A DNA stretch of 64,000 nt from Comamonadaceae bacterium (GTDB taxonomy: Bacteria > Pseudomonadota > Gammaproteobacteria > Burkholderiales > Burkholderiaceae_C). Under the pieces are notes generated by a model. The model ran no database searches. It saw only the letters and a program-made list of their open reading frames with translations, and was not told the origin of the DNA. The translations under genes and the position numbers were made by a program. Numbering within the stretch: the stretch's first letter is position 1; every line of letters begins with the position of its first letter. The DNA lies in NCBI GenBank assembly GCA_027486755.1, contig JAIXOM010000045.1:248001-312000 (forward strand). Direction: 5' to 3'. Below are positions 36,107 to 54,442 of this stretch, in pieces.

Positions 36107-37306
36107 CTAGGCCATCACTCCTGCATCAAGGAGGTGATCGACCTCCTGTGCGCTCCAGCCCGCGTCCAGTAGCACCTGCCGGCTGTGCTCGCCGCAGCGC
36201 GGTGGGCTCAATACGATGCCAGGGCGCTGGCCGGCCAGGGTGATGGGCACCAGCGGTGCCAGCACCTCTTGGCCAGCACGTGGCCCATCGGGTAGCTGCA
36301 TGGGCGCCAGGCCGCCGGTGGCCAGGAGGTGCGGGTCTTCGAACAGGTCCTCAGGGCTTCGTATCGGCGCATAGGGCAGCCCTGCGCGCTCCATGGCCCG
36401 GGCCAGTGCCTGCACCTCGAAAGTCTCCAGATGGGCGCGCAGGCGCGGCATCAGTGTGGGCCGGGCCAGTACCCGCTGGTTGTTGGTGGCCAGGCTGGGC
36501 TCGGTCTTGAGATCGGGCAGGCCCAGCACATCACAAAACAACAGCCACTGGGCGTCACTGACCGCCGCCAAAAAAATCTGCTCGCCATCCTTGACGGTGA
36601 ACACGTCATAAATCGCCCAGGGACTGACCCGCGCCGGCATGGGGGCCACCGGCTTTTGCAGGATCGCATGCTGCAGCATGTGCTGGCCGACCAGAAAGAC
36701 GTTGTTTTCATAGAGGGCAGACTGCACCTCCATGCCCTGACCAGATATGCCACGCTGTACCAAGGCCGCCATCACACCGATGGCGCCAAACATGCCACCC
36801 ATGATGTCATTGACGCTGGCCCCCGCGCGCAGCGGATCGCCCGGCCGACCAGTCATAAAGGCCAGACCGCCCATCATCTGAACCACCTCGTCGAGCGCCA
36901 GGCGATTTTGATAGGGCCCCGGCAAGAAGCCCTTGTGACTGACATAAATCAGTTTTTTGTGGTCTGGTGCCAGGTCTTCATAAGCCAGCCCGAGCTTGGC
37001 CAGGGCACCGGACTTGAAGTTCTCGACCACCACATCGGCGCCCAGGCACAAGCGCCTGGCCACCGCCCTGCCCTGCGGCTGATGCAGGTCGAGGGCGAGG
37101 CTCTTTTTATTGCGGTTAAACAGCGGGAAAAATCCTGCGCCTGCGCCCAGCAGCTGCCGGGTGCGGTCGCCGCCCAGCGGTTCGATCTTGATCACCTCGG
37201 CGCCCAGGTCGGCCAGGATCATGCCGCAGGCCGGCCCCATCACCATGTGGCTCATCTCTATCACCCGCAGGCCGCGCAGCGGCAGCGCCGAGGTCGCGCC
37301 GCTCAT
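36107..37306 (-). CDS. CaiB/BaiF (class III) CoA-transferase
   Basis: A 399-residue CoA-transferase: LRGLRVIEMSHMVMGPACG, GAEVIKIEPLGGDRTRQL, and probable catalytic Asp in GASVNDIMGGMFGAIG. It is the last gene of the leftward operon starting at 44327 and overlaps the YrdC-like gene by four bases. It presumably activates the carboxylic acid product of the cluster for further degradation. The third such enzyme in the window; each sits in a different gene cluster. Confidence 0.9.
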   Translation of the reverse strand: MSGATSALPLRGLRVIEMSHMVMGPACGMILADLGAEVIKIEPLGGDRTRQLLGAGAGFFPLFNRNKKSLALDLHQPQGRAVARRLCLGADVVVENFKSGALAKLGLAYEDLAPDHKKLIYVSHKGFLPGPYQNRLALDEVVQMMGGLAFMTGRPGDPLRAGASVNDIMGGMFGAIGVMAALVQRGISGQGMEVQSALYENNVFLVGQHMLQHAILQKPVAPMPARVSPWAIYDVFTVKDGEQIFLAAVSDAQWLLFCDVLGLPDLKTEPSLATNNQRVLARPTLMPRLRAHLETFEVQALARAMERAGLPYAPIRSPEDLFEDPHLLATGGLAPMQLPDGPRAGQEVLAPLVPITLAGQRPGIVLSPPRCGEHSRQVLLDAGWSAQEVDHLLDAGVMA

Positions 37307-37989
37307 GCGCTGGCTGGCCTGGGCGGCAGCTCGATGCGAAAGTGGCGCTTGAGGATGTCGGCGATGTTTTCAAAGCAGGAACCGTAGCGCACCACCTCCA
37401 GCGTCTCGCAGTGGATCAAGGTGGACGATGACTGCCAGGGGTGGTATTTCATCAGGCCGTAGTCGATGACCACATCGGCAATGGCGGTGATTTCGCTTTC
37501 CATGTCTTCAACTCGGAACTTGGTGCCGTGCAGCGACAAATTGGCCGAGGAGCCAAAGAGCAGGGTCTGGCGCTCCAGGCTCAGGCGGGTGATCTCACGG
37601 TGAAAAGGTCCGGCGTTGAGCAGCATCAGCAGGGTGTGGTCGCGGGTGCTGCGGGCGTAAATATCAGGATCGAGTTTGGCCAGCAAAGGATGGTCTACGC
37701 GGCACGGCGCGATCAGGCCCAGCGGCAGGTCATAGTCCTGCACGATGGCCTGCACGATGGCACGCCCGCGTTCGCTGACCTGATGCAACTCGCGATGCAA
37801 GTCATCGTTACCGAGCATGGCGTTGAGCTTGGCCGGCGCCCTGCGCTTGGTGGCAAAAATCTTATGCAGGGCCGGCGCGGTCGCACCGATCAGGGAGTAG
37901 CCCACATCGTTGGGCAAGATGGCGATGCCGCCGCCCTCCATCACCTTCATAGCGCGCTCAGCGTCTGCGCGTGGATCGATCACTGACAT
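37303..37989 (-). CDS. YrdC/Sua5-family paralogue A in a catabolic operon
   Basis: Starting at 37989 (AGGA 5 bases upstream), this 228-residue protein keeps the YrdC fold signatures KRR (48-50) and GSSANLS (146-152) that bind ATP/carbonate in TsaC. The usual T-[DE]-T/A-[VF]-[YF]-G-L substrate segment after strand 1 reads PNDVGYSL (26-33). A C-terminal extension of about 50 residues ending LKRHFRIELPPRP is shared with paralogue B at 45721-46452. TsaC makes threonylcarbamoyl-AMP for tRNA t6A, but the changed pocket and operon position argue for another substrate. The stop overlaps the CoA-transferase start. Confidence 0.75.
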   Translation of the reverse strand: MSVIDPRADAERAMKVMEGGGIAILPNDVGYSLIGATAPALHKIFATKRRAPAKLNAMLGNDDLHRELHQVSERGRAIVQAIVQDYDLPLGLIAPCRVDHPLLAKLDPDIYARSTRDHTLLMLLNAGPFHREITRLSLERQTLLFGSSANLSLHGTKFRVEDMESEITAIADVVIDYGLMKYHPWQSSSTLIHCETLEVVRYGSCFENIADILKRHFRIELPPRPASA

Positions 37990-38013
37990 GGATTCCTCAA
38001 TGAAATAGGGCAT

Positions 38014-38667
38014 TCAGCCGTTTTGATGGGCAAAGATCACTTGCTTGCCGCTCAGGATGTGGGCCCGCATGGTGGCCTGAGCCAGGCCCGGATCGCGCGA
38101 GCGCAGGGCGTGCACGATCTCCTGGTGGTGGGCAGCGCTGCGTTCGAGTGCGGCCTGATCGTAGCGGGCAAAGGTCTGCGAGACCATGGGCACCTGCACC
38201 ACCGCGCTGAGCAGGCTGGCCAGATGCCTGTTCTTGCTCGCTTCCAGGATGGCACGGTGAAAGCGGTTGTTGGACTCTTCAATGGCCGCCATGTTGCGGC
38301 GGCTCTTCTTGGCCACCAATGCACTGAAGCGGTCGGCCTCGGTCTGCAGCAGGCTCAGGTCTTCCTCAGTGGCATGGCTGGCCGCCAGCTCACAGCCATA
38401 GGCTTCGAGCATGACCCGCAGGTCAAAGACCTGGAGCAGGTTTTCGCTGCTCCAGTCCATGACCCGCGCACCGCGGTTGGGATGGAGTTCAACAAAGCCC
38501 TCGGCCGCCAGCACATTGAGCGCCTGGCGTACCGAGGTGCGCGAGACTTCGGCCCGCTCGGCCACAGCCACCTCCCGTATCCACGATCCGCCTGGGTACT
38601 GCCCACTGCGGATCGCCTCACGGATGACCTGGCAGGCTTTGTCAACGCTGCTGGTCAGGCCGTTCAT
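38014..38667 (-). CDS. GntR/FadR-family regulator (FCD domain)
   Basis: A 217-residue regulator: N-terminal winged helix (about 10-75; EVSRTSVRQALNVLAAEGFVEL) and an all-helical FCD ligand domain (about 85-210). FCD metal/ligand residues appear in FHRAILEAS, HHQEIVHAL and MRAHI. It is embedded in the leftward operon between the binding-protein and YrdC-like genes, so it likely autoregulates that operon through the palindrome in the 44328-44413 divergent promoter region. Carboxylic acid effectors are usual for the FCD class. Confidence 0.92.
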   Translation of the reverse strand: MNGLTSSVDKACQVIREAIRSGQYPGGSWIREVAVAERAEVSRTSVRQALNVLAAEGFVELHPNRGARVMDWSSENLLQVFDLRVMLEAYGCELAASHATEEDLSLLQTEADRFSALVAKKSRRNMAAIEESNNRFHRAILEASKNRHLASLLSAVVQVPMVSQTFARYDQAALERSAAHHQEIVHALRSRDPGLAQATMRAHILSGKQVIFAHQNG

Positions 38668-38679
38668 GCGGGCCTGGCC

Positions 38680-39486
38680 TCAGCGCCAGTATTCCGGCCG
38701 CGAGAAGCCCTTGGCCTTGGGGTCGGTCTCAACAAAGCGCCTGTATTCGTTGGACTTGTAGCCAGTGACCAGCTTGGCGATCAGATCAGATTTGGCCACA
38801 TCGTCACGGGCGGCCAAGATGATGCGGTACTGCGGCGCCGGGTCTTCCAGGGCCAGGGCCGAGGACAGCGCCATGCCGGAGGCAATCACATGGTTGCCCA
38901 AGATGGTCGAGGCGTCCATCTCCGACAGGGTGCGCGGCATCTGCGGCGCATCAATCAGCACCAGCTGAATATTCTTCGGATTGCCGGTGACGTTCTTCTC
39001 GGTGGCCCGGCCAGCGGCCACCGCCGGGTCCAGGGTGATCAGGCCCTGACCTTGCAAAAACGCCAGCGCGCGGCCCATGGAGGTCGGGTCATTGGGCACC
39101 GAAATACGCGCGCCGTTGGGCAAAGACTTGATGTCTTTGTGCTTGGTCGAGTAAATGCCCAGGGGGGCGCTGGGGACCTGCAGAACCTCGACCAGACGGG
39201 CTTTTTGCTGGGTGTTGAAGGTCTCCAGGAAGGCGCGGTTTTGGAAGACATTGGCATCGAGCGAGCCGTCCATCAGCGCAGAGTTGAGCTGGATGATGTT
39301 GGAAAACTCGGTGGCCTGCACCTTGATGCCCTGGCTTTCCAGGTAGGGCTGCACGCCGCGCTTGAACTGGTCGGCATAGGGGCCGGGGAAAAAGCCGATG
39401 CGCAGCACCTGCTGGGCCCAGCTTACGCCGGTGGTGGCGCTCAGGGCTGCGGCCAGTACACCAGCCAAGAGATTGCGTTTTTTCAT
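38680..39486 (-). CDS. MetQ/NlpA-family periplasmic binding protein
   Basis: From the ATG at 39486 (GGAGATC 6 bases upstream) the product is 268 residues with signal peptide LLAGVLAAALSATTGVSWAQ. NlpA/MetQ landmarks: LRIGFFPGPYADQF, EFSNIIQLNSALMDGSLDANVFQN and GARISVPNDPTSMGRALAFLQ. Unlike MetQ of E. coli there is no lipobox Cys, so it should be soluble in the periplasm. With the ABC genes upstream it forms a MetNIQ-type importer. Given the catabolic neighbours, the ligand is probably not methionine. Confidence 0.85.
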   Translation of the reverse strand: MKKRNLLAGVLAAALSATTGVSWAQQVLRIGFFPGPYADQFKRGVQPYLESQGIKVQATEFSNIIQLNSALMDGSLDANVFQNRAFLETFNTQQKARLVEVLQVPSAPLGIYSTKHKDIKSLPNGARISVPNDPTSMGRALAFLQGQGLITLDPAVAAGRATEKNVTGNPKNIQLVLIDAPQMPRTLSEMDASTILGNHVIASGMALSSALALEDPAPQYRIILAARDDVAKSDLIAKLVTGYKSNEYRRFVETDPKAKGFSRPEYWR

Positions 39487-39545
39487 GGGGATCTCCTTCA
39501 AATGGACAAACAAAATACGCGGACACAAAAGGGATTGAGCAGGCA

Positions 39546-40217
39546 CTAGCGCCGGTCGCTGCGCCGAACCAGCCAGTCGCCCAGCCATTGGGTGCACTGG
39601 ACCAGGATGAACATAATGATCACACACCAGATCATCACCGATGTCTCGAAGCGGTAGTAGCCAAACCGTATGGCCAGATCGCCCAGGCCGCCGGCACCCA
39701 CCGCGCCAGCGACCGCCGAATAGGCGATGAATCCGGTGGCGGTGACTGTCAGACTGCCCAGCAGGGCCGGCAGCGCCTCGGGGATCAGCACCTTGAGCAC
39801 GATTTGCAGGGGCGTGGCGCCGCAGGCTCTTGCCATCTCGACCATGCCGCGCGGCACATCGCGCAGGTTCTGCTCCACCAGGCGCGCAAAGTAGGGAATC
39901 ACCGCAAAGGACAGGGCAACGGCCGCCGCCTTGGGGCCGATGCTGGTCCCCACCAGCACACGGGAAAACGGAATCAGGAGCACCAGCAAGATGATGAAGG
40001 GGAAAGAGCGCAGCACATTGACCAGATAGGCCGCCACCCGGTTGAGCACCGGCTTGGGGTAGAGACCTTGGTCGGATGTGACGAAGAGGAACACGCCCAA
40101 GGGCGTGCCCAGCAGCACCGCGCTGAGCATGGTCACGCCCACCATCAGGAAGGTGTCGCTGGTGGCTTTCCACAGGTCGGGGCCGAATTCAACAAAGGCC
40201 TTGAGGAGCTCGTTCAT
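39546..40217 (-). CDS. MetI-family ABC transporter permease
   Basis: A 223-residue inner-membrane permease with five to six hydrophobic segments. The coupling motif is EMARACGATPLQIVLKVLIPE, shown in part as ARACGATPLQIVLKVLIPE. GFIAYSAVAGAVGAGGLGDLA is typical of MetI. It overlaps the ATPase gene by four bases and is followed by the binding protein 59 bases away. Length matches MetI (about 217). Confidence 0.88.
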   Translation of the reverse strand: MNELLKAFVEFGPDLWKATSDTFLMVGVTMLSAVLLGTPLGVFLFVTSDQGLYPKPVLNRVAAYLVNVLRSFPFIILLVLLIPFSRVLVGTSIGPKAAAVALSFAVIPYFARLVEQNLRDVPRGMVEMARACGATPLQIVLKVLIPEALPALLGSLTVTATGFIAYSAVAGAVGAGGLGDLAIRFGYYRFETSVMIWCVIIMFILVQCTQWLGDWLVRRSDRR

Positions 40218-41002
40218 GTTTCCTCCTGCGGCAGCTCGGTCTGGTCGGTCCAGCCTTTAGCGGTCTCGAAAAAGAAGCGGCCCAGCCGACTGACGGGCTC
40301 GGGCCGGCTCATGTCAATGCGATCGACCACCGCGCCTTTTTCCAGCACCACCGAGCGCTCGCACAGATAACTCGCCACCTTGATGTCGTGGGTCACCACC
40401 ACCATGGTCATGCCCCGCTCACGTTTGAGCTGCTTGAGCAGGCGCAGGATGGACAAGGCGGTGTGCGGATCGAGCGCCGAGGTGGCCTCGTCGCTGAGCA
40501 ATATTTGTGGCCGCATCGCCAGCGCCCGGGCAATGGCCACCCGCTGCTTTTGCCCGCCCGACAGCTGCGCCGGATAGGCCGACTCCTTGTCACTCAGGCC
40601 GACGGCCGACAGCGCCTCGCGCGAGCGCTCGCGCCTTTGGGCGGACGACAGCCCAGCCACTTCCAGCGCAAAGGATACATTTTCGAGCGCGCTGCGGCTG
40701 CTCAGCAAATTGAATTGCTGAAAGATCATGCCCACCTGCTGACGGGCCTGGCGCAGCTCGGCGGCGGGCAGTGAGGTGAGATCACGCCCGCCGATCAGCA
40801 CCCGCCCGCTGCTGGGCACTTCGAGCAGATTGATCAGGCGCAGCAAGGTGCTCTTGCCCGCCCCAGAAAAGCCGAGCAGGCCCACCACCTCGCCTTGGGC
40901 AAGGGTCAAATCGGTGGGCAAGAGTGCATGCACCGGTGCCTGCGCCGTGCCATAGGTCTTGGAGACGCCTTGAAGTTCAATCATGGGAGAGTCAGAAGTC
41001 AT
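40214..41002 (-). CDS. MetN-type ABC ATPase without the C-terminal NIL domain
   Basis: The start at 41002 overlaps the previous stop (ATGA) and gives 262 residues. Walker A GFSGAGKSTLLR, signature LSGGQKQRVAIARAL, Walker B ILLSDEATSALD and His in VVTHDIK are intact. Canonical MetN has about 340 residues because of a C-terminal NIL/ACT domain that mediates trans-inhibition by methionine. That domain is absent here. This favours a catabolic importer not regulated by internal methionine. Confidence 0.88.
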   Translation of the reverse strand: MTSDSPMIELQGVSKTYGTAQAPVHALLPTDLTLAQGEVVGLLGFSGAGKSTLLRLINLLEVPSSGRVLIGGRDLTSLPAAELRQARQQVGMIFQQFNLLSSRSALENVSFALEVAGLSSAQRRERSREALSAVGLSDKESAYPAQLSGGQKQRVAIARALAMRPQILLSDEATSALDPHTALSILRLLKQLKRERGMTMVVVTHDIKVASYLCERSVVLEKGAVVDRIDMSRPEPVSRLGRFFFETAKGWTDQTELPQEET

Positions 41003-42918
41003 GCTTGCGGCCCTTTTTGGCTGGCCTCGGGTCCGGCCGCAGCCTGCCATGCGTCGACGACCTCACCGAGTCTGGGCATCCAGACCTGGTCGAGGGCCAG
41101 CGCCTGATCGAGCACCCGCTCGAAGAGGGCAATGCGGGCGGACGAGCCCAATACCCAGGGCCGCACGCAAAAATGAAACAGGCGCGCCGAGGTTGCTGCG
41201 TCGCGATTGAGCTGGCGCAAGGCCTTGCCGAAGTGGTCTTCCAGGATGGCGGGGTCGCACATGCGGTTGATCAGCACCGTCTGGTCGTCAAAGTCGGCCC
41301 ACAGCGGCGTGGCAATCAGGGAGCCGGGCGTACGCATGCGGTAGGGCTGCTCGTCATTGGCCCAGTCGGACAGGTAATGCACGCCCTGCTCGCCCAGCAA
41401 TTGAGGGGTCAGGGTCGATTCGCTGTAATCCGCACCAAACCAGCCTCGGGTTTGCACACCGCAGGCTGCCAGCCGGTCCAGGGTTGCAACAATATAGCTT
41501 CGCTCTTCCTGCAAGCTCATGCGGCTGGTTTGAGGCCGGGTGACCGACAGCCCGTGGGCAATGAACTCTGCGCCGTCTTGCTGCAGACGATCGAGCAAAT
41601 CCGGATAGCACTCGGCCGTGATGGCATCCATGGCCACCGTCGGCCGTACGCCGCGCTGGCGCAGCGCATCGAGCAGGCGAAAGATGCCGACCCGGTGGCC
41701 GTATTCACGGGTGGAGACACGCGAGATATTGGGAAAGTCGCGGATCAAGCCACCGCCAACGCTGTGCACCTGCGGCCAGCCGGTCGGCAGCGGATCTTCA
41801 TAAGCTTCGAGCACCAAAAGAGGTACCACCGCCAGCTGGCCCGGCGCCTGCCAGTGCAGTGCCGGCCGGCTCGGCCAGGGGTTCCAGTCGCAATGCGGAT
41901 GGTCGTAGCCGGGCTGTCGCTCGGCAGGCCATGGCCCCGGGGCCATGGTGACGCTGGCCGGCTTGTGCGGCCGCAGCACCACCTGCGGCGCTCTGGCCTT
42001 GCGGCGCTCATCAATCTCGCGGGCATGGGCCACATGTTCGTCGTGGTGGTGATCGAGGAAGTGGCGGGCGATCTCGTCGCCGGTGGCCCACCACAGGCCT
42101 TCGTGGCCGGCGATATGGTCGAGCACCTCGCGCAGATGGCCAACATGGTGCGGCTGTCCGATCTGATAGGGATGCAGGGCAATGCAAAACACCCGGCCGC
42201 CGTCGGCACTCTCGGCATACAGCCGGTCGAAGGCTGCCTTGCAGGCGTCAACAAAGTAACGCGCGCCGTAGGGACGGCCGTCCCACAGCGGCGCGTCGTT
42301 CAGGTCGTAGGTATAGGGAATGGAGACGAGCTTGCGGCCGGGCACATGAATCGGCACCGGCACATCGTCATGAACCCAGTCGGCGTGATAGATCATGCCC
42401 GACTCGGCAATCAGCGCCGGCGTGCGCGCAGTGTTGGTGATGGCCGGCGTGAGGATGCCCAGCAGGTCGGCGCCGGTATGGCGTTTGAGGCTGTCTATAT
42501 TGTCTTTGTAGAAGGCGCGCTCCTGCGCCTCGTCCATGCCGTACAAAAACCGGGTGTTGTAAAGGCCATGGCTCATCACCGCCCAGCCGCGCTGGCGTAT
42601 GAGTTGGGCAATTTCAGGAAAGTGATCGAGCAGCGCCAGGTTGAGCGAAACGGTGGGCCGCACCGGGTATTGCTGCAGCACCTCGTCCATGCGCCAGATG
42701 CCCACCCGGTTTCCATAATCGCGAAATCCGTATTCGCGCACATCCGGATGAGCTGGCACCCGGTCCCAGGTCTCGCGCCCTATGGCTGGCGGAGGGGTGT
42801 ATTCGTAGAACTCCACATTCGGCACGATCCACACCGCCAGGCGCTTGCCGCCTGGCCAGCGCACCGCCGGCCGGCTGGTCACAGGTGCGTACTGAACAAA
42901 GTCTCGAATCGATGGCAT
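40999..42918 (-). CDS. Tandem-fused polysaccharide-deacetylase/imidase-like protein
   Basis: A 639-residue protein made of two homologous NodB-like (PuuE allantoinase/cyclic imidase type) domains. Domain 1 (about 15-305) contains YGNRVGIWRMDEVL, WAVMSHGLYNTRF, IYHADWVHDDVP and ALHPYQIGQPHH. Domain 2 (about 370-620) repeats the order with YGHRVGIFRLLDAL, AEFIAHGLSVT, HYLSDWANDEQPY and CVRPWVLG. The His region is better kept in domain 1, so domain 2 may be regulatory or have changed specificity. A single-domain relative is at 56886-57788. This family hydrolyses cyclic imides, ureides or N-acyl groups. Confidence 0.8.
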   Translation of the reverse strand: MPSIRDFVQYAPVTSRPAVRWPGGKRLAVWIVPNVEFYEYTPPPAIGRETWDRVPAHPDVREYGFRDYGNRVGIWRMDEVLQQYPVRPTVSLNLALLDHFPEIAQLIRQRGWAVMSHGLYNTRFLYGMDEAQERAFYKDNIDSLKRHTGADLLGILTPAITNTARTPALIAESGMIYHADWVHDDVPVPIHVPGRKLVSIPYTYDLNDAPLWDGRPYGARYFVDACKAAFDRLYAESADGGRVFCIALHPYQIGQPHHVGHLREVLDHIAGHEGLWWATGDEIARHFLDHHHDEHVAHAREIDERRKARAPQVVLRPHKPASVTMAPGPWPAERQPGYDHPHCDWNPWPSRPALHWQAPGQLAVVPLLVLEAYEDPLPTGWPQVHSVGGGLIRDFPNISRVSTREYGHRVGIFRLLDALRQRGVRPTVAMDAITAECYPDLLDRLQQDGAEFIAHGLSVTRPQTSRMSLQEERSYIVATLDRLAACGVQTRGWFGADYSESTLTPQLLGEQGVHYLSDWANDEQPYRMRTPGSLIATPLWADFDDQTVLINRMCDPAILEDHFGKALRQLNRDAATSARLFHFCVRPWVLGSSARIALFERVLDQALALDQVWMPRLGEVVDAWQAAAGPEASQKGPQA

Positions 42919-42923
42919 GGCAG

Positions 42924-44327
42924 TCAGACGCTGGCGTTTTGGCGGGTGTCGGACGGCAGGCGCAAGGCCCTGGCGTCGCTCAGATACTGGAGATTTTGCA
43001 GCTGAGCATACAGCGCCTTTGCTGCCTCAGCCTCTATGCCAGCCGCCTGAGCGCAACCCATGAATTTTTCCTGCAGTTGCTCAGGCGGCAGCGGCGTGTC
43101 GGCATGGCCGGTGGCGCGCCGCACTTTGGGCGAGGCGACGGTGCTGCCGTCGTCGAGCTGTAAAAAGATCTGGTCAAAGGGTGCAGCATCGCGCCAGCCA
43201 GGCTCGAATTCTTCGGTGGTGTGGATGTGCACACACTCCATCAGGGCGACGATGCGCGGATCGCGCACCACCTCGTCGCGCAGCTGCGCCAGACCGACGG
43301 CCCCATGCACCAGGGCGCTGGCAATCGCAAATTCCAAGCTGAACTTGGCTTGCAGGGAGTCGGTGGGGCGGTGATGCGGCATCACCGCCGCATGGCGGGC
43401 GCTGATGTGCGCGTCGATGCGCTTGATGCGCGCCAAGTCCAGCGCATGCTCGCGCCGCAGACCCAAGGCGGCGTCGATGCCACGCTGGGCCGAGCCGACC
43501 ACCGGGTATTTCTTGATGTTCAGGCCCAGCTGCGTCAAACGCCATTGACCCGGCACGGGCGCGGCAGCCTGCAGGTCGACTCGGCCTTCCGGGGAAAAAG
43601 CGCGCATCAGACCATGGCGCCCCTCGATAGCAGTGGCTGACGCCTGTAGCCCGCAGCGGGCCATGCCGGCGGCCTGCACACCCACCCAGGAGGCGCGTCC
43701 GCCATGGAAGGGTTTGGCCATGGTGCCAAAGTTTTCGAACACGCCGCCAGCGCTTGATGCAGCCAAAGCCAGCGCGTGGCGAGTCTGCTCTGCGCTCAGG
43801 CCCCAGATGACGCAGGTCGCGGCAGTGGCGCCCAAGGTGCCCAAGACAGCGGTGGGGTGCCAGCCTTGCTCGTAGTACAGGTCTTTCTCGCGCAAGAAGG
43901 CGTCTGACCACACCTCATAGCCTATGGCGTAGGCCCGCAGCAGCATGGCCCCGTCAGCCACCCCGCTGTCAGCCGCAGCCAGGATGGCCGGCACCAGTAC
44001 CGCACTGGGGTGGTTGGAAAAAGCGAAGTCGTCGTAATCGAGCGCATGCGCGGCCGTGGCATTGAGCATGGCCGCCACCGCTGGCGGCACCCGACCGTCA
44101 TGGCCCAGGACCCGCGCCACCGGCGGGCCGCCCTGCTCCCGCACCCAGCGCAAAAGTGCCAGCACCGCTTCTTCATGGGCACCGGCCAGTGTGACGCCGA
44201 TCGCATCGGTAAAGCCCAGTGTGGCCACTTCGATCGCGCGCTCAGGCAGCGGTAGGCTGCGGGCCGCCGCAACGAAGTCGGCATAGGCCTGGGTCAGGGG
44301 GGCGGGATTTGTATGCAATTCGCTCAT
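42924..44327 (-). CDS. MmgE/PrpD family protein
   Basis: A 467-residue member of the 2-methylcitrate dehydratase/cis-aconitate decarboxylase family. Typical segments: TLGFTDAIGVTLAGAHEEAV, NATAAHALDYDDFAFSNHPS (the family's HxxDxDD-like motif as HALDYDD), GYEVWSDAFL and the FHGGRASWVG region. It is the first gene of the leftward operon (5-base gap to the deacetylase-like gene), directly behind the divergent promoter. Family members dehydrate or decarboxylate hydroxy-tricarboxylates; many homologues in catabolic clusters have unknown substrates. Confidence 0.88.
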   Translation of the reverse strand: MSELHTNPAPLTQAYADFVAAARSLPLPERAIEVATLGFTDAIGVTLAGAHEEAVLALLRWVREQGGPPVARVLGHDGRVPPAVAAMLNATAAHALDYDDFAFSNHPSAVLVPAILAAADSGVADGAMLLRAYAIGYEVWSDAFLREKDLYYEQGWHPTAVLGTLGATAATCVIWGLSAEQTRHALALAASSAGGVFENFGTMAKPFHGGRASWVGVQAAGMARCGLQASATAIEGRHGLMRAFSPEGRVDLQAAAPVPGQWRLTQLGLNIKKYPVVGSAQRGIDAALGLRREHALDLARIKRIDAHISARHAAVMPHHRPTDSLQAKFSLEFAIASALVHGAVGLAQLRDEVVRDPRIVALMECVHIHTTEEFEPGWRDAAPFDQIFLQLDDGSTVASPKVRRATGHADTPLPPEQLQEKFMGCAQAAGIEAEAAKALYAQLQNLQYLSDARALRLPSDTRQNASV

Positions 44328-44356
44328 GCGGATTCGACGAGTCAGGCCTCAATCCC

Positions 44357-44409
44357 TTGGATAGGAACAATTTGCAAGATATTATGCATACAATTTTTAA
44401 GCGACTCAA
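44357..44409. promoter_or_regulatory. Overlapping divergent promoters
   Basis: Rightward: TTGGAT (44357-44362), 17 bases, TATTAT (44380-44385). Leftward: TTGAGT (complement of 44404-44409), 17 bases, CATAAT (complement of 44381-44386). The two -10 boxes overlap. The rightward start point near 44392 lies after the ATG at 44384, so the amidase must begin at the next in-frame ATG, 44414. Confidence 0.6.
44381..44394. promoter_or_regulatory. Palindromic operator, probable GntR target
   Basis: ATTATGCATACAAT contains the perfect palindrome TATGCATA with partly symmetric ATT/AAT flanks. It covers both -10 boxes of the divergent promoters. The GntR/FCD protein at 38014-38667 is the obvious candidate repressor. 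Confidence 0.45.
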
Positions 44410-44413
44410 TCCA

Positions 44414-45730
44414 ATGAAGGAAGTCCTCCGACCCCTGTGGCAACTGACGGCCAGCCAGGCCAGCACCCTGATGCAGCAAGGGCGCCTGAGCAGCGAGCAG
44501 TATGTGCGCGCCTGCCTGGATCGCATTGCCGAGCGCGAGCCGCAAGTGAAGGCCTGGGCCCATGTAGATGCCGACACAGCCCTGGCTCAGGCCAGAGCCT
44601 GCGATGCCCAGCCCAGGCGAAGCGCCCTGCACGGCATACCTGTGGGCCTGAAGGACGTGATCCGCAGCTTCGATCAGCCTACCCGCTTTAATTCCCCGAT
44701 TTACGCCAATCACCGGCCCAATGAAGACGCGCACAGCGCCGAGGTCCTGCGCCTGCACGGTGCGGTGATTCTGGGCAAGCTGCAGACCCTGGAGTTTGCC
44801 TGCGGCGGTCAGTTCCCGCCAACCTGCAATCCCTGGGACCTGGCGCGCACACCGGGCGGCTCGTCTTCCGGCTCGGGTGCAGCGGTGGCCGATGGCATGG
44901 TGCCGCTGGCTCTAGGCACACAGACGGGCGGCTCCACCATACGCCCAGCCGCGTTCTGTGGCGCCGTCGGCATGAAGCCAACCTGGGGCCGCATCCCATT
45001 TGACGGTATCAAAAGCTTTGCCGCGCATTTAGATACCGTGGGCCTTTTTGCACGCAGTGCGGACGACCTGGCTCTGCTGCTCGAGGCCTACGCTCTGCTC
45101 GAAACGGAGCCGCCTGGGGTGCCGCCCCTGCGCCAACTCAAGCTGGCCGTCTGCCGCACGCCCTTGTGGGCGCAGGCCGAGGCCGTGGCGCAATATGCCT
45201 TTGCGGCTTTTCTCGAGCGCCTGCGCGCCGCTGGCGTGCAGCTGAGCGAGCTGGCTTGGCCCGAAGAGCTGGCCGCCATCAACACCTGGCAGGACGAGGT
45301 GATGCAAGACGGCGGGCGCAGCGCCTTTTTGCCCGAGCTGCTCAAAGCGCCTGAGTTGCTGCACCAGGACTTTAAAAACAAGCTGTCCAATCACCTGCAG
45401 CTCACGCCGGCCGGCATGCGGCTGGCGCTCGACCGCATTGCGCAGGCCCGCATGACTTTTGAAAGCGCCATGGGCGATGCTGACGCGGTCATTGGTTTGA
45501 GCGCGCCCGGCCCTGCTCCGCTGGGCCTGCACAGCCAGGGCATGGCCACCTTCAACCGCCTGTGGACCGCGCTGCAGGTGCCCTGCATCAGCCTGCCGCT
45601 GCTGTGGAGCCCCGAGGGCCTGCCCATGGGCTTGCAACTGATACACCGGCGCTATGAGGACCACCGGCTGGTCACTGTGGCTCGTACCCTTGAATCGGCC
45701 TTGTACGAAGAAAGACACCCATGGAATTGA
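44414..45730 (+). CDS. Amidase signature family enzyme
   Basis: The 438-residue enzyme has the Ser-Ser-Lys triad: Lys80 in GIPVGLKDVI, the cis-Ser in TPGGSSSGSGAA (around 150) and nucleophile Ser174 in GTQTGGSTIRPAA. The start at 44414 is chosen because the promoter places transcription after the alternative ATG at 44384; neither has a strong ribosome site. Amidase-signature enzymes hydrolyse carboxamides, ureides (allophanate) or amidated intermediates. The stop overlaps the YrdC-like gene by 10 bases. It would release ammonia or an amine from the cluster's substrate. Confidence 0.9.
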   Translation: MKEVLRPLWQLTASQASTLMQQGRLSSEQYVRACLDRIAEREPQVKAWAHVDADTALAQARACDAQPRRSALHGIPVGLKDVIRSFDQPTRFNSPIYANHRPNEDAHSAEVLRLHGAVILGKLQTLEFACGGQFPPTCNPWDLARTPGGSSSGSGAAVADGMVPLALGTQTGGSTIRPAAFCGAVGMKPTWGRIPFDGIKSFAAHLDTVGLFARSADDLALLLEAYALLETEPPGVPPLRQLKLAVCRTPLWAQAEAVAQYAFAAFLERLRAAGVQLSELAWPEELAAINTWQDEVMQDGGRSAFLPELLKAPELLHQDFKNKLSNHLQLTPAGMRLALDRIAQARMTFESAMGDADAVIGLSAPGPAPLGLHSQGMATFNRLWTALQVPCISLPLLWSPEGLPMGLQLIHRRYEDHRLVTVARTLESALYEERHPWN

Positions 45731-46452
45731 TCACCCGCGTTCCCGAGCCCATTGAACAGCTTCAGCGCCGCGACGCACAGCAGGCGTTTCGCATCATGAG
45801 CAGCGGCGGCGTGACCCTGCTGCCGCTGAGCGTGTCCTACGCCATCTTTGCCCACACCGCGCTGGCGGTCGAGCGCATTTACAGCCTGAAAAAGCGCCCT
45901 CAGACCAAGCCCAATGGCGTCATCGGTAATTGGGACATCTTCACCGAGGTGTTTGAGGTGAGCGAGCGCGACCGCGATCTGGTGCGCTGCCTGACGCTGG
46001 ACCACGACCTGCCCTTGTCCATCATCGGCCCTTACCGGGCCGACCACGACTGGCTGCGCACGGTGCAGTTTGGCGCCCTGCGCCGCTCGACCAAGGCCGG
46101 CACCATGGACCTGCTCATGAACGCCGGCCCTTTGCACAATGAGTTGGCCCGCCTCAGCCTGGAGACGGCGCTGCCCCTGATGGGCTCGTCGGCCAATATC
46201 TCGGGCTCGGGAAGCAAGTTCCGCTTTGAGGATGTGCAGGAGAGCCTGCGCGAAGGCTGCGACCTGGCGCTGGACTACGGCACCTCGCGCTACATCAATC
46301 AGTGGCAGATGGGCAGCACCATCATTGAGTTGCCCACTTGGCAGGTTCTGCGCTGGGGCGGCCTGTTCGAGCAACAGGCCGTGCTGGTGAAAAAACACTT
46401 CGGCGTAGAGCTCACGCCGCGGCCCAGCAGCGGATCCTGGACGCTGGTATGA
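45721..46452 (+). CDS. YrdC/Sua5-family paralogue B in a catabolic operon
   Basis: A 243-residue paralogue of the protein at 37303-37989, with colinear segments throughout: DHDLPLSIIGPYRADH, LLMNAGPLHNELARLSLE and the C-terminal VKKHFGVELTPRP. KKRPQTKPNG (57-66) and GSSANISG (155-162) keep the ATP/carbonate-site signatures of TsaC/YrdC. The threonine-pocket motif is replaced by PLSVSYAI (35-42). It overlaps the amidase gene by 10 bases and the PLP-enzyme gene by 4 bases. The two paralogues may form a hetero-oligomer; their reaction is unknown. Confidence 0.75.
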   Translation: MELITRVPEPIEQLQRRDAQQAFRIMSSGGVTLLPLSVSYAIFAHTALAVERIYSLKKRPQTKPNGVIGNWDIFTEVFEVSERDRDLVRCLTLDHDLPLSIIGPYRADHDWLRTVQFGALRRSTKAGTMDLLMNAGPLHNELARLSLETALPLMGSSANISGSGSKFRFEDVQESLREGCDLALDYGTSRYINQWQMGSTIIELPTWQVLRWGGLFEQQAVLVKKHFGVELTPRPSSGSWTLV

Positions 46453-47516
46453 CGCAAAGCCACCGCCCTCCCTCGCCGGACCCACGCTGGCAACGCCTGC
46501 GTGAACTGGCTGGCCTGGTGGGTCGCACGCCACTGCTGGCCTTGCGCCTGCGTTACCGCGGCCGTGAGGCCTGTATCTATGCCAAAGCCGAGTCCTTCAA
46601 CCTGACAGGCAGCATCAAAGATCGCATGGCCCTGCATATTCTTGCGGCGGGTCTGAGCTCAGGGCAGCTGCGTCAGGGCGCCCTGGTGACCGAGGCGACC
46701 AGCGGCAATGCCGGCATCGCCATCACTGCCATGGCCACCGCCATCGGCCATCCGGTCAAGATCTTCATGCCCGACTGGATGAGCGCCGAGCGCATCGCAC
46801 TGATGCGCCTGTACGGTGCCGAGGTAGAGCTTGTCTCGCACGCGCAGGGTGGCTTTTTAGGCAGCATCGCCCGCACCCGTGAGTTGGCCTTGGAACCGGG
46901 CGATTGCTTCCTGCCCTCGCAGTTTGACAACGAAGCCAATGCCCAGGCCCATGAAGAGGGCACCGCGGTCGAGCTGCTGGCGCAACTGGCCAGCCGGGGC
47001 CTCAAACCCGACGCCTTTATTGCCGGTGTCGGAACCGGCGGCACAGTGCTGGGGGTCTCCCGGGCGCTGCGCAAGTCCTGCCCGGGTGCCCAGGTCTACC
47101 CGCTGGAGCCTGCCGAATCGCCGACGCTATCGACCGGCCACAAGGTCGGCAAGCACCGCATTCAGGGCATCTCTGACGAATTCATCCCGGCCCTGTGCCG
47201 CCTCGACCAGTTGGGGCCGGTGGTGGCCGTCCACGACGGCGATGCGATCTTGCTGGCCCAGCGCCTGGCCCGCGAGCTTGGCCTGGGGGTGGGGGTATCG
47301 TCGGGCGCCAATCTGCTGGGCGCGCTGACAGTGCAAGAGCGTTTAGGCCCGCAGGCGGTGGTCTGTACCGTGCTGTGCGACGACAACAAAAAATACCTGT
47401 CCACCGACTTATGCCGCGAAGAGCCGCTGCGGCCCGGCTACCTAAGCCCAGACATCGAGCTCATCGGGCTGGAGTCGATCGCCTGCCCGACCCCGGAGCT
47501 GGCCATCTCAGCCTGA
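46449..47516 (+). CDS. Cysteine synthase-family PLP enzyme
   Basis: The ATG at 46449 overlaps the previous stop (ATGA) and gives 355 residues. This is a fold-type II PLP enzyme: Lys57 in NLTGSIKDRMA forms the Schiff base, TEATSGNAGIAI is the carboxylate loop, GVGTGGTVLGVSRAL binds the PLP phosphate, and VSSGAN follows. Cysteine synthase/cystathionine beta-synthase relatives catalyse beta-replacement or beta-elimination on Ser, O-acetyl-Ser or diaminopropionate-like substrates. Its length exceeds CysK/CysM by about 30 residues (C-terminal extension). Third gene of the rightward operon; a biosynthetic role is less likely here. Confidence 0.88.
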   Translation: MTQSHRPPSPDPRWQRLRELAGLVGRTPLLALRLRYRGREACIYAKAESFNLTGSIKDRMALHILAAGLSSGQLRQGALVTEATSGNAGIAITAMATAIGHPVKIFMPDWMSAERIALMRLYGAEVELVSHAQGGFLGSIARTRELALEPGDCFLPSQFDNEANAQAHEEGTAVELLAQLASRGLKPDAFIAGVGTGGTVLGVSRALRKSCPGAQVYPLEPAESPTLSTGHKVGKHRIQGISDEFIPALCRLDQLGPVVAVHDGDAILLAQRLARELGLGVGVSSGANLLGALTVQERLGPQAVVCTVLCDDNKKYLSTDLCREEPLRPGYLSPDIELIGLESIACPTPELAISA

Positions 47517-50731: not shown

Positions 50732-51481
50732 TCAGTGGCATTCCATCAAGTTACCGAACCCGGCTACCTTGTCGGTGATGCCCTGGGCGCGCAGCGCATG
50801 CCAGTAGGTGGCGGTATTGATGGCGATCACGGGCTTGCCCAGGAAGAGTTCGGCCGCGGCGGCCAGGCGGATCATGGACAAGTTGGTGCCGACCTGCACG
50901 ATGGCGTCGACATCGTCGCCGTCGAGCTTTTGCAGGGTCTGGCGGCACATATCGTCGGTGGTGTGGGCGATCAGCACCGGGCTGGGCCGCTCAAGGCAAA
51001 TGTCACGTACCACGGTAAAGCCGCAGTCGCTGTAAAAGCGCCGAACTTCTTTATTAGCCACCTCGAAGTAAGGCGACAGAAAGGCGATGCGCTTGGCCTT
51101 GTAGACATTGAGCGCGGCCTCGGTGCCGAAGGAGCCGCAGCTGACTTTAACCTGGGCGCGCTCTTCCATCATCTTGATGTAGCCCTCGGCGCCCTTGCGG
51201 CCGTTCCAGAAGGTGGCAGCCGACATGCCCATGATCATGTAGTCCATCTCACAGGTGCGCAGCACATCAATGGCCTCGAGGGTGGACTTGTTGATGTTGT
51301 CGACCAACTTGAGAAAGCTCTCGTTGTCGTTGACCGGGTTGTTGGGGATCGCGATGCGGCTGTAATGATTGGTGACGCCGACCGGGCGCAGGTCGTCAAA
51401 GTCGGGCTGCACGATGGTGTTGGTGGATGGCCCCAACACGCCAAACTTTTGTCGGTAGCCCAGATGATCAGCCATGGTCAA
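50732..51481 (-). CDS. Maleate isomerase-like (Asp/Glu racemase superfamily) protein
   Basis: A 249-residue protein opening RQKFGVLGPSTNTIVQPDF, a start typical of maleate cis-trans isomerase and arylmalonate-decarboxylase relatives. The first active-site segment reads MIMGMSAATFW and the second IVQVGTNLSMIRL, so neither standard Cys is present at the expected places. Function is therefore uncertain. It overlaps the cysteine hydrolase gene by four bases, the same adjacency as maleamate amidohydrolase and maleate isomerase in nicotinate degradation. Last gene of the leftward arm of the GntR cluster. Confidence 0.7.
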   Translation of the reverse strand: MTMADHLGYRQKFGVLGPSTNTIVQPDFDDLRPVGVTNHYSRIAIPNNPVNDNESFLKLVDNINKSTLEAIDVLRTCEMDYMIMGMSAATFWNGRKGAEGYIKMMEERAQVKVSCGSFGTEAALNVYKAKRIAFLSPYFEVANKEVRRFYSDCGFTVVRDICLERPSPVLIAHTTDDMCRQTLQKLDGDDVDAIVQVGTNLSMIRLAAAAELFLGKPVIAINTATYWHALRAQGITDKVAGFGNLMECH

Positions 51482-52098
51482 CTCCTCGTGTGTTGTGCGA
51501 TGAATTCGTCGCGGCTCATCACATCCGCATATTTCTGCTTCATGTCGAACAGGTTGGCATCGTGCGGCTCGATGGCACGGTCGCCCACGCAGTCGCTGAT
51601 GATGACGGTGCGCAGGTTGTGCTGCATGCTGTCGACCACGCTGGCGCGCACACAGCCGCTGGTGGTACAGCCGACGATGACGGCGGTATCGACCCCGCGC
51701 TGCAGCAGCCAGCCGGCCAGACCGGTTTCAAAAAAAGCCGAGGCCGACTGCTTGCGGATCACCCATTCGCCGGGCAGCGGCTGGAGCTGGGGCACGATCT
51801 GAGAACCGGGGGCGTGCTCGGTGAGCTTTTGCAGGGGCGGGACTCGCAAGGCAAAGATATTGTGGTTGGAGCCGTCGTCCTCAAACACCACCCGGGTATG
51901 CACGATGGGCAGTTGCTGCGCCCGAAAATGCGCAAGCAAAGGGACGGTGGCATTGGCAGCGGCCAGGATGTGCGGGCCGCCGAGCTGGTCGAAGTCCACA
52001 AAGCCGTTGACGAAGTCGACCAGCACCAGCGCGCACTTGCGGCCTATGCCGGAGGTGCCGCCCAGGCCCTGGTGTTTGTAAATGGCGTGCTTGTCCAT
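51478..52098 (-). CDS. Cysteine hydrolase (isochorismatase/N-carbamoylsarcosine amidase family)
   Basis: A 206-residue amidohydrolase with the triad Asp28 (LVLVDFVNGF), Lys116 (VIRKQSASAF) and Cys149 (GCTTSGCVRAS). The TTSGCVRAS motif is the form found in N-carbamoylsarcosine amidase and maleamate amidohydrolase (NicF). It hydrolyses an amide or carbamoyl group, releasing ammonia. It lies 14 bases behind the lyase gene and overlaps the maleate-isomerase-like gene by four bases. Confidence 0.88.
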   Translation of the reverse strand: MDKHAIYKHQGLGGTSGIGRKCALVLVDFVNGFVDFDQLGGPHILAAANATVPLLAHFRAQQLPIVHTRVVFEDDGSNHNIFALRVPPLQKLTEHAPGSQIVPQLQPLPGEWVIRKQSASAFFETGLAGWLLQRGVDTAVIVGCTTSGCVRASVVDSMQHNLRTVIISDCVGDRAIEPHDANLFDMKQKYADVMSRDEFIAQHTRS

Positions 52099-52112
52099 GA
52101 CGGCTCCCGATG

Positions 52113-53027
52113 TCAGTCTTGCTTGTGTTCGCTGTCGAACTGAGCGACCCAGTCAAAACCCATCATCTGGGAAAACTTACCGAAGTCATACAGCGGCGTG
52201 CTGGTGCCCACGGTCGAACCGGTGGCTTGGATGCCCTTGTACACGCTCTCGAAGGCGGCGCCGGCCGCCAGAAATGCGGCTGCAGGGAAAATCGCCAGCC
52301 GGTAGCCTATGGCCTGCAAGTCTTCGCGGCTGAGCACAGGCGTGCGGCCACCGTCGACCATATTGGCCACCAGCGGCAGGTCAAAGGCCTTGCCGATGCG
52401 CTCCATCTCTTCGATCGACTCCGGGCTCTCCACAAACAGCAGGTCAGCGCCAGCGCGGGCGTAAATTTCAGCACGGCGCAGCGCTTCGTCCAGGCCGTGG
52501 GTGGTGCGCGCGTCGGTGCGGGCGATGATCAAAAAGTTGGGGTCGCTGCGGCTTTCCACCGCCACCCGGATCTTGTCGGCCATGGCCTGCGCATCGACCA
52601 CCCGGCGGCCAAGCATGTGGCCGCATTTTTTGGGAAATTCCTGGTCTTCGAGCTGGATCACGCAGGCGCCGGCAGCCTCATAGCCGCGCACCGTATGCAT
52701 CACATTGAGCAGACCGCCGTAGCCGGTGTCACCGTCGCAGATCATGGGCGTGGCGGTGATGCTGGCAAATTGCTGCACCCGGTTGACCATGTCCGAGTAG
52801 GTGGCCAGGCCAGCGTCAGGCATGCCCAAGTAAGAGGCCACGGTGCCGTAGCCCGTCATGTAGAGGGCTTCAAAGCCCATGCGATCGGCGATTTTGGCCG
52901 AGACCATCTCGAAGACGCCGGGCGCCGACAGCAGGCGCTTTTCCCGCAAGCGGGCCGCCAGCTTGGCGCGGCGCACGGAATGGCTGACGCGGGAGATGCC
53001 GCGAACGATGTTGTCAGACGGGTTCAT
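52113..53027 (-). CDS. Isocitrate lyase / PEP mutase family protein
   Basis: A 304-residue lyase of the PrpB/2,3-dimethylmalate-lyase branch. Mg-binding segment ICDGDTGYGG and the catalytic Cys loop FPKKCGHM are intact, followed by IIARTDARTTHGLDEA. Such enzymes cleave C4-C7 2-hydroxy-dicarboxylates or methylisocitrate into succinate/pyruvate or propionate-type pieces. It overlaps the monooxygenase gene by four bases. In this cluster it may perform the final C-C cleavage after ring opening. Confidence 0.9.
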   Translation of the reverse strand: MNPSDNIVRGISRVSHSVRRAKLAARLREKRLLSAPGVFEMVSAKIADRMGFEALYMTGYGTVASYLGMPDAGLATYSDMVNRVQQFASITATPMICDGDTGYGGLLNVMHTVRGYEAAGACVIQLEDQEFPKKCGHMLGRRVVDAQAMADKIRVAVESRSDPNFLIIARTDARTTHGLDEALRRAEIYARAGADLLFVESPESIEEMERIGKAFDLPLVANMVDGGRTPVLSREDLQAIGYRLAIFPAAAFLAAGAAFESVYKGIQATGSTVGTSTPLYDFGKFSQMMGFDWVAQFDSEHKQD

Positions 53028-54217
53028 GCAATGGCCTCCGCGCGATCGAGCGCATCGAGCATGGAAGATTTACGCAGGTATGCACGCGCGGCCGCTGGAT
53101 CGGCGGCGGTGGCGCGCAGTGCGTCCTGGGTTTTCTTGCGGGCAACCGGATCACGCTCTTCAATCTCGGCCTTGTTGCGTGCTGTGCTGGCGTTGATGTA
53201 CTCAATCGCGATGGTGCGGCGCTGGCGCTCGTAGCGGTCGAGCAGGCTCTCATCCTGGCCCTGCTGCAGCACCTCCAGCAATTTGTGGGACAGGTTGAAG
53301 GCATCGTGAACGCCGCCGTTCATGCCCATGCCCCCGAGCGGATTGTTGATGTGGGCCGAGTCGCCAGCCAGCAGCACCCGGCCGCGCCGAAACTCCTTGG
53401 CCACCCGCTGATGCACCTTGTAGAGCGTGCGGTGGATGGTCTTGTAGGGCTGGGGCTGAGCCAGCAGGTTTTGCAGCCGGGCCTGCACCGCCTCGTCGGT
53501 GAGCACCTCTTCGTCGCTCTCCTCGGGGCGGGTTGGGAACAGCACCCGCCAGAGCGTGGGCACGCGCAGCAACACACACCATTCCTTGGGGTCTGAGCAG
53601 TAGTTCACATACGAAAGCTTGGGCAAATGGTTGGCGTACTCAAAATCGGTGGAGATCACCAGGAAGCGCTCCGGGTAGGTGTAGCCCTCGAACTCAATGC
53701 CCACGCTGCGCCGCACCGCGCTCCAGGCCCCATCAGCGCCAATCAGGTAGTCGCCCTCCAGGCGCAGCGTCTCGCCCTCCTGCTGGGCCACCAGCTGCAC
53801 CTTGTCGGCGGTTTGCGTGACCGATTCAACCTTGGCATTGAACAGGATCTTCACATGGGGCAATTTGGCCAGTTGGTCCTTGATGGCTTCAGTCAGCTTC
53901 CACTGCTCGCATTGCAGGCGGAAAGGGTGCTCGGTATCGTTCTTGAGCAGATCCATGTCGAATTCGGCGATCACGCCTTCGCTGCGGTCGCGCTGCTGGG
54001 TGTAGCGAGCCACCAGGCCCTGCGGCACGATGGTCTGCGACAGACCGTAGCGGGCCAGCATGTCCAGGGTCGGCGGGTGGAAGGTCGAAGCCCGCAGGTC
54101 CATGCTCAGACCCGGCGCGCCTTCAAGCACCGTTACCGCAATGCCAGCCTGGCCCAGAACCAGGGCGCTGACCATGCCAACCGGGCCGGCGCCGGCTATC
54201 AAAATATGAGATTTCAT
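53024..54217 (-). CDS. Class A FAD-dependent aromatic monooxygenase
   Basis: The ATG at 54217 (GGAG 9 bases upstream) gives 397 residues; upstream in-frame codons precede the promoter. FAD motifs: ILIAGAGPVGMVSALVL (residues 4-20), DG motif YLIGADGAWSAVRRS and GD motif GRVLLAGDSAHINNPLGG. These mark the p-hydroxybenzoate hydroxylase fold, which hydroxylates aromatic or N-heteroaromatic rings with NAD(P)H and O2. It is the first gene of the leftward arm, its promoter carrying a GntR-type operator. Confidence 0.9.
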   Translation of the reverse strand: MKSHILIAGAGPVGMVSALVLGQAGIAVTVLEGAPGLSMDLRASTFHPPTLDMLARYGLSQTIVPQGLVARYTQQRDRSEGVIAEFDMDLLKNDTEHPFRLQCEQWKLTEAIKDQLAKLPHVKILFNAKVESVTQTADKVQLVAQQEGETLRLEGDYLIGADGAWSAVRRSVGIEFEGYTYPERFLVISTDFEYANHLPKLSYVNYCSDPKEWCVLLRVPTLWRVLFPTRPEESDEEVLTDEAVQARLQNLLAQPQPYKTIHRTLYKVHQRVAKEFRRGRVLLAGDSAHINNPLGGMGMNGGVHDAFNLSHKLLEVLQQGQDESLLDRYERQRRTIAIEYINASTARNKAEIEERDPVARKKTQDALRATAADPAAARAYLRKSSMLDALDRAEAIA

Positions 54218-54245
54218 CAGATCTAGCTCCAAACTAAGAGAGCTA

Positions 54246-54275: not shown

Positions 54276-54399
54276 GCGCCACGACTCAAGGCCCCGGCCC
54301 GCAAAGGAAACAGCTTCGCCGTTTCCCTATGACCGAGGGATACCGCCATCAGTGCAAACCCTTAACGCGCCCACTTGCCTGCTGCTGGATCCCACAAAT

Positions 54400-54409: not shown

Positions 54410-54442
54410 TACTTTATAGTGATCGGAAATTAAAGCCCAACC

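Follow-up and report, generated by a model that had tools for sequence, protein, structure and literature searches.

A recurrent divergent gene cluster with two YrdC-like proteins in Comamonadaceae and its possible role in imide or amide catabolism

A cluster of eleven densely packed genes in two divergent arms occupies positions 36107-47516 of a 64,000-nucleotide stretch (the window; contig JAIXOM010000045.1, positions 248,001 to 312,000) in the genome of a Comamonadaceae bacterium, GCA_027486755.1 (the host; 3,996,478 bases in 64 contigs). Two of the genes, yrdA and yrdB, encode proteins of the YrdC fold, whose known roles lie in the modification of tRNA, the maturation of hydrogenases and the carbamoylation of antibiotics. 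Their linkage with genes for an imidase-like protein, an amidase and an MmgE/PrpD-family enzyme is conserved, and operator-like sites lie between the arms. We tentatively, and with less than even confidence, read the cluster as a repressor-controlled accessory module that breaks down a small cyclic imide or amide derived from a substituted C4-dicarboxylate, and in which YrdA and YrdB would adenylate a carboxylate intermediate.

Outward from the junction, the minus arm carries prpD, pda, metN, metI, metQ, a gene for an FCD-domain GntR regulator, yrdA and a family III CoA-transferase gene, and the plus arm carries an amidase gene, yrdB and a cysK-like gene. Adjacent genes overlap by 4 bases at pda/metN, metN/metI, yrdA/CoA-transferase and yrdB/cysK and by 10 bases at amidase/yrdB. 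This tight packing was described in the initial annotation of the window from its open reading frames, and a gene caller based on codon usage recovers the same eleven frames, with different starts for pda, metQ and yrdA. The starts of metN, the amidase gene and the cysK-like gene were picked within longer open frames; the yrdA start at 37989 agrees with those of its homologues, and 38013 is possible too. About 86 bases separate the annotated starts of prpD and the amidase gene. The GC content of the window is flat (0.59-0.67 in 2 kb steps), and ARAGORN found no tRNA genes in it. Ten of the cluster proteins, both YrdC-like ones included, score above the Pfam cut-offs for their named families; the CysK-like protein was assigned by NCBIfam.

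Nine YrdC-like proteins were aligned, and a scan of genome contigs with this alignment yielded 78 loci, whose neighbouring genes were called by codon usage and clustered. Both arms are complete on one contig in eight loci (the window, L022, L031, L032, L033, L037, L038 and L042), and all eight keep the order prpD-pda-metN-metI-metQ-gntR-yrdA opposite amidase-yrdB, a conserved synteny that bears out the treatment of these genes as one cluster in the initial annotation. The eight copies are not independent observations, because L031-L033 share gene order far outside the cluster. An extra VOC gene precedes yrdA in L022, L038 and L042 and follows it in L037, and the amidase gene appears broken in L031 and L042. 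A search with pda produced matches at 1e-60 in 13 of 399 genomes of the family, five of which, the host included, hold the full tandem length. Each of the remaining four carries a YrdC gene of the same catabolic branch, so that no full-length pda stands without YrdC in any of the five genomes. In three of the four (G082, G592 and G647) the full-length gene lies within the same cluster type; in G768 it is adjoined by prpD and the amidase gene on a 5 kb contig, and yrdB is on a separate contig. Since these four genomes had already been found by the YrdC scan, the pda search is a test of specificity and not a fresh sample.

Only two of the 21 genomes of the genus, the host counted, encode YrdA. 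The gene pair neighbouring the cluster, which we take to be yggX and mnmC, stands without the cluster in the four congeners inspected (of 17 matching). Together these distributions indicate that the module is accessory. In another congener, a CoA-transferase 66% identical to that of the window lies directly upstream of yggX-mnmC, in the place taken by the window cluster (L160, 6376-7584).

Two genes at the outer ends of the arms, which the initial annotation had counted among the cluster members, are local extras outside the core. The gene for the CysK-like pyridoxal-phosphate (PLP) enzyme (46449..47516, plus strand; TIGR01136, 280.6 of the cut-off of 344; nearest PDB structure 5b53, E 1.8e-113) is present in one of the eight complete copies and otherwise, among the clustered loci, only in the fragments L098 and L099. 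The frc/CaiB-like CoA-transferase gene that ends the minus arm (36107..37306, minus strand; PF02515, 345.9 bits) adjoins yrdA in the window alone among the complete copies, and a close relative also adjoins yrdA in the fragment L163; a CoA-transferase gene adjoins yrdB in three of the eight (L031-L033). The nearest NCBIfam model to the window protein is succinate-glutarate CoA-transferase, at 225 of the cut-off of 750 bits. An old-yellow-enzyme gene stands beside yrdA in three of the eight copies; the one protein scanned, from L032, is nearest to N-ethylmaleimide reductase (264 bits of the cut-off of 403).

The region between the arms is conserved as well. Among the ten divergent regions first examined, ATGCATACAA lies between prpD and the amidase gene in nine, the exception being L102, the form ATTATGCATACAA in eight, and TTGYATGCAA on the prpD side in seven. 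Two regions examined later (L098 and L131) carry both sites, bringing the totals to 11 of 12 for ATGCATACAA and 9 of 12 for TTGYATGCAA; an operator-like site is found in every one of the eight complete copies. In the window, candidate sites of the form TTGTATGCA fall within 44300-44400: site 1, ATTGTATGCATAAT, on the amidase side (44381..44394, minus strand), and site 2, TTTGTATGCAAT, found by pattern search at the prpD start (44308..44319, plus strand). The 14 bases of ATTGTATGCATAAT have a single match with at most one mismatch in the 4.0 Mb host genome, at the junction; with three mismatches the window holds 1 match against 1.38 expected, not rarer than chance. The pattern WTTGYATGCAWW, itself derived from the two junction sites, occurs twice in the window, both times at the junction, with 0.10 expected and 1 of 100 shuffles reaching two. 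Since site 2 sits inside the annotated prpD start (44308-44327), the TTG at 44318 may be the true start, and the gene caller started the L032 and L037 homologues at TTG-CAT in the same place. The conservation of these sites is good evidence that one regulator controls both arms, the simplest candidate being the cluster's own FCD-GntR protein (38014..38667, minus strand; PF07729 and PF00392 above cut-off), which would bind there, and the shared operator region proposed in the initial annotation thus gains support. Further copies of TTGYATGCAA (L031 18633, L032 18662, L033 18073 and L107 9656) are found downstream of the cluster, close to a VOC gene and the genes of a Dpp-type peptide importer, and the regulon may therefore be wider in these loci.

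YrdA (37303..37989, minus strand) and YrdB (45721..46452, plus strand) are paralogues with 43% identity. Both are single-domain proteins of about 228-243 residues in which PF01300, the TsaC/Sua5 domain, is the only domain found at E 0.001 (30.2 bits for YrdA and 45.0 for YrdB; cut-off 25.1), and YrdA reaches 31 of the 123.2 bits required by the TsaC/Sua5 equivalog TIGR00057. Their predicted fold is nearest to Smu.1377c and TsaC2/Sua5. In an alignment of 60 members of the branch, chosen from 92 usable ones, the KxR/SxN tetrad that binds ATP in TsaC/Sua5 (PMC9654439, PMC10321239) is kept in all 60, YrdB included. The threonine-binding set T33/S181/R195 (Pa-Sua5 numbering) is altered: in the sequence alignment, R195 is kept throughout and S181 in 51 of the 60, and Thr33 in a single member. 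The old threonine site holds Asn, Leu or Met across the branches, with Leu in YrdB. The invariance of the tetrad makes an ATP-consuming step plausible; nothing shows the use of bicarbonate, with which the initial annotation had coupled it, and the residues that bind threonine in Sua5 have changed. Besides these two, the host encodes a Sua5 of its own (198 bits) and one more PF01300 protein (L002, 143 bits), presumably YciO-like. The L002 row lacks the tetrad in the alignment and is possibly misaligned; the Smu.1377c-like rows L018-L020 display it. The YrdC tree stems from a short search with long-branch warnings, which leaves its root uncertain, as well as where the Sua5, YciO-like and Smu.1377c-like rows belong.

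The branch to which YrdA and YrdB belong is linked to catabolic genes in alpha-, beta- and gammaproteobacterial records. The neighbourhoods of its 92 members are characterised by pda (28), LeuCD (22), HyuAB (12), tripartite ATP-independent periplasmic (TRAP) transporter or isochorismatase-like genes (11), amidase alone (1), amidase with HyuAB (1) or other genes (17). Neighbours were counted, with profiles built from the same loci, in the 64 non-redundant loci whose context spans 8 kb or more: MmgE occurs in 30, an amide or imide hydrolase in 29, LeuC in 21, and two or more YrdC genes in 16. Of the 64, 58 have one or more of the set MmgE, amide hydrolase, LeuC, Bug and CaiB, the last two being common genes without a background rate. 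The loci are not independent genomes; record names reveal same-genome pairs (L034/L102, L039/L104, L062/L105, L064/L081, L071/L097, L092/L106 and L093/L101). With 9 MmgE genes per 4.0 Mb in the host, about 3% of random 15 kb stretches would be expected to contain one, and the occurrence of MmgE in 30 of the 64 loci is far above chance even when relatedness is allowed for. Two annotated Sua5/YciO/YrdC/YwlC genes also stand in tandem in the isolate Variovorax paradoxus VAI-C (L146, 7147-14193; CP063167.1), between a phosphoenolpyruvate-mutase/isocitrate-lyase family gene and a CoA ligase gene with LeuCD.

The remaining core proteins point towards the hydrolysis and rearrangement of a dicarboxylate derivative. 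The pda product (40999..42918, minus strand) consists of two PuuE-like NodB-fold domains, the first of which keeps the LHP histidine, and the second has RP there. Its nearest solved relative is the allantoinase PuuE (3cl6, E 2.5e-26), and it scores 184.6 bits against the TIGR03212 (PuuE allantoinase) cut-off of 424.6. In L035, L036 and L039 pda is split into two genes, which suggests that the window gene is a fused pair. The amidase-signature enzyme (44414..45730, plus strand; PF01425, 251.5 bits) is nearest to malonamidase E2 (1ock, E 3.6e-57), whose substrate we take to be a half-amide, and is by this kinship a probable half-amide hydrolase. The prpD product (42924..44327, minus strand) exceeds the cut-offs of both MmgE/PrpD domains (PF03972, 180.9 bits; PF19305, 106.1 bits) and is nearest to iminodisuccinate (IDS) epimerase (2hp3, E 1.5e-47), with whose His/Asp/His/His/Lys/Lys blocks it was aligned by eye. 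It thus retains the dicarboxylate-binding residues; MmgE substrates have a 1,4-dicarboxylate in common, and the accessible text on the family gives a conserved binding set with Glu in second place (PMC12290011). Against the 2-methylcitrate dehydratase PrpD equivalogs it scores 22-40 bits of 458-950.

The importer, called MetNIQ-type in the initial annotation, belongs to the MetN, MetI and MetQ families and falls below every curated methionine-importer cut-off. MetN (40214..41002, minus strand) matches positions 1-224 of the 343 in TIGR02314 (258 bits; cut-off 499.7), MetI (39546..40217, minus strand; PF00528) reaches 202 of 212 for PRK10782, and MetQ (38680..39486, minus strand; PF03180, 201 bits) reaches 120.5 of 228.85 for TIGR00363 and 122 of 374 for another MetQ cut-off. 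Lacking the C-terminal part of MetN and the lipobox cysteine of MetQ, the importer is, as judged from its sequence, only MetNIQ-like.

In the module we propose, the compound would enter through this importer, its ring would be opened by the tandem PuuE-like protein, and the malonamidase-like amidase would strip ammonia from the resulting half-amide. The MmgE/PrpD enzyme might then isomerise or dehydrate the 1,4-dicarboxylate, which the CoA-transferase, where present, would carry onward. YrdA and YrdB would spend ATP on adenylating an intermediate common to all cluster types at its carboxyl (or N-carboxyl) group, in place of forming threonylcarbamoyl-AMP for tRNA. The hydrolytic steps are suggested by family relationships. 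The import and stepwise deamidation put forward in the initial annotation fit, as a general role, the allantoinase- or imidase-like pda, the malonamidase-like amidase and the IDS-epimerase-like prpD product. An imidase followed by an amidase has been reported in fungal nicotinate breakdown (PMC9304392). Alkylated maleimides, succinimides or hydantoins would fit as substrates. A tetrapyrrole-derived maleimide was considered as the natural substrate, pyrrolic chlorophyll degradation products being reported in plants (PMC7318184); nothing in the data singles such compounds out, and we note this only as an idea. A bolder possibility, for which our confidence is lower than for the module itself, is that YrdA and YrdB form a new carboxylate-adenylating catabolic class, a third line of the YrdC fold beside N6-threonylcarbamoyladenosine (t6A) synthesis and carbamoyl transfer. 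Paired as one enzyme, they would use ATP to activate a substituted C4-dicarboxylate or the half-amide of one, and the substrate would be set by whichever residue (Asn, Leu or Met, according to the branch) occupies the former threonine site.

Several observations weigh against the catabolic module as proposed. In the NCBIfam scan, which covered the ten cluster proteins other than YrdB, none reaches a cut-off among the matches listed, so that no activity of these proteins is fixed. Six of the 64 loci (L047, L049, L050, L051, L076 and L107) have none of the five counted neighbours nearby, although L076 has PrpF and L107 has MetQ and an old yellow enzyme. LeuCD-type clusters contain a YrdC gene and no imide or amide hydrolase, so that the YrdC step cannot be linked to nitrogen removal. 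The typed neighbours include no Kae1/TsaD-type transfer partner, and the operator-like site is missing from the type I copy L102.

The most serious rival is the catabolism of a hydantoin or ureide, which we regard as less likely than the imide or amide reading but as its main competitor. Here pda or HyuAB would open a hydantoin-type ring, the amidase or an isochorismatase-like hydrolase would remove the ureido ammonia, YrdA and YrdB would handle an N-carboxy or N-carbamoyl amino acid, close to ancestral TsaC chemistry, and the MmgE protein would epimerise an aspartate-like product as IDS epimerase does. The kinship of pda to allantoinase and of the L054 isochorismatase-like protein to biuret hydrolase and RutB (both below cut-off) agrees with this, as do the IDS epimerase as nearest relative of the MmgE protein and the use of N-carboxythreonine or carbamoyl phosphate by YrdC enzymes. 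However, the amidase is nearest to malonamidase, and other clusters of this YrdC branch include LeuCD and methylisocitrate-lyase-like, RipB-like and CitE-like genes, which speaks for branched dicarboxylates that carry no amino group. The family matches of MetNIQ and CysK would also suit the import of a methionine- or cysteine-related compound and the action of the CysK-like enzyme upon it; such use of sulfur amino acids is improbable given a cysK-like gene in one of eight copies, a MetN without its C-terminal part and scores under all methionine-importer cut-offs.

Two further alternatives concern the YrdC-like proteins and the unity of the cluster. Membership of PF01300 and the likeness of their fold to TsaC2/Sua5 might mean that YrdA and YrdB are regulators, or proteins of t6A or other RNA modification that have come to lie in catabolic operons by chance. 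The separate Sua5 and additional PF01300 gene of the host, the altered threonine site and the repeated linkage to catabolic genes in alpha-, beta- and gammaproteobacterial records leave little probability for this. That the two arms are neighbours by chance and work separately is the least probable explanation of all: yrdA and yrdB do lie on different contigs in some genomes (L034/L102 and L039/L104), though these assemblies are fragmented, but the divergent order is kept in the eight complete copies, each with its operator-like site.

The favoured reading of a catabolic, adenylating YrdC branch can be set beside several known systems. TsaC/Sua5 shares PF01300 and the ATP tetrad with YrdA and YrdB, and differs in its Thr33, kept in only one of the 60 branch members, and in the catabolic surroundings of the branch in a host that has its own Sua5. 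YciO (structure 1k7j, as we take it to be) and Smu.1377c (3l7v, the nearest solved structure) are likewise standalone YrdC-fold proteins without an assigned substrate, but the homologues of Smu.1377c in L018-L020 keep the PT motif, and the accessible text on YciO links it to rnm and possibly to rRNA (PMC12506659). The carbamoyltransferases HypF and TobZ have a Kae1-like domain fused to theirs, in contrast to the single domains of YrdA and YrdB. PuuE allantoinase/cyclic imidase is the nearest solved relative of both PuuE-like proteins in the window, yet pda departs from it as a tandem fusion with an altered second half, below the PuuE cut-off. Methylsuccinate/itaconate clusters resemble the surroundings of the YrdC branch in the recurrence of MmgE, family III CoA-transferase, RipB-like and CitE-like genes. 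As described in the accessible sources, they contain an MmgE/PrpD isomerase, CoA-transferase, RipB and RipC and no YrdC or imidase gene, whereas RipB and RipC are absent from the window cluster. The RipB-like protein of L069 (243 of 340 bits) is no more than suggestive of a methylsuccinate/itaconate route for the TRAP type. Anaerobic nicotinate breakdown includes a dimethylmaleate hydratase/dimethylmalate lyase route, which the LeuCD-type locus L080 resembles in LeuC and LeuD (over cut-off) and in its methylisocitrate-lyase-like and PrpF/oxalomesaconate-tautomerase-like proteins (under cut-off). L080 differs in the addition of YrdC and an acyl-CoA ligase, an enzyme of the 3-(methylthio)propionyl-CoA-ligase type over its cut-off; no nicotinate genes were recognised nearby, where no search was aimed at them.

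Other loci in the window and elsewhere display related gene sets. An adjacent second cluster (window 50732-63751) follows a similar imide or N-ring logic, with EutA/maleate-isomerase-like, two isochorismatase-like, PrpB-like lyase, FAD monooxygenase, FCD-GntR, short-chain dehydrogenase/reductase, metallo-beta-lactamase-fold, single PuuE-like and Liv-type importer genes, several of these names being our presumption. A third host locus (L130, 7759-19901; G000:C13, about 52.8-64.9 kb) holds four PuuE-like genes, two isochorismatase-like genes, one MmgE and what we take to be tautomerase-, racemase- and PhyH-like genes, and no YrdC; a similar locus occurs in L135, and L132 and L136 show partial likeness. 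Marine proteobacterial records (L052-L059, L065 and L068) contain a HyuA-HyuB-YrdC-MmgE operon with isochorismatase-like genes, several beside CitE, CoA-transferase and an HpaB-like flavoprotein, a set suggestive of a lactam or hydantoin pathway not yet described. In L054 the HyuA and HyuB proteins have caprolactamase subunits as their nearest matches, scoring 529 and 231 bits against cut-offs of 1000, and CitE and CoA-transferase, like the isochorismatase-like protein, fall below cut-off.

Literature searches covering titles and abstract openings, with most subscription papers outside their reach, found no catabolic YrdC. The accessible text of a 2025 survey of PF01300 separates TsaC/Sua5 from YciO and mentions no catabolic group (PMC12506659), and the main text of the isoprene paper on Variovorax WS11, whose plasmid name L083 bears, mentions neither YrdC nor Sua5. 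The fold is known and the adenylation chemistry probable; what is new is the biological setting. If our reading is correct, a YrdC branch that has repeatedly become part of catabolic operons would extend the chemical range of an ancient adenylating fold, and the automatic name "Sua5/YciO/YrdC/YwlC family protein" would conceal another function. Isolates such as Variovorax paradoxus VAI-C make the hypothesis testable, and an unrecognised proteobacterial pathway would be indicated.

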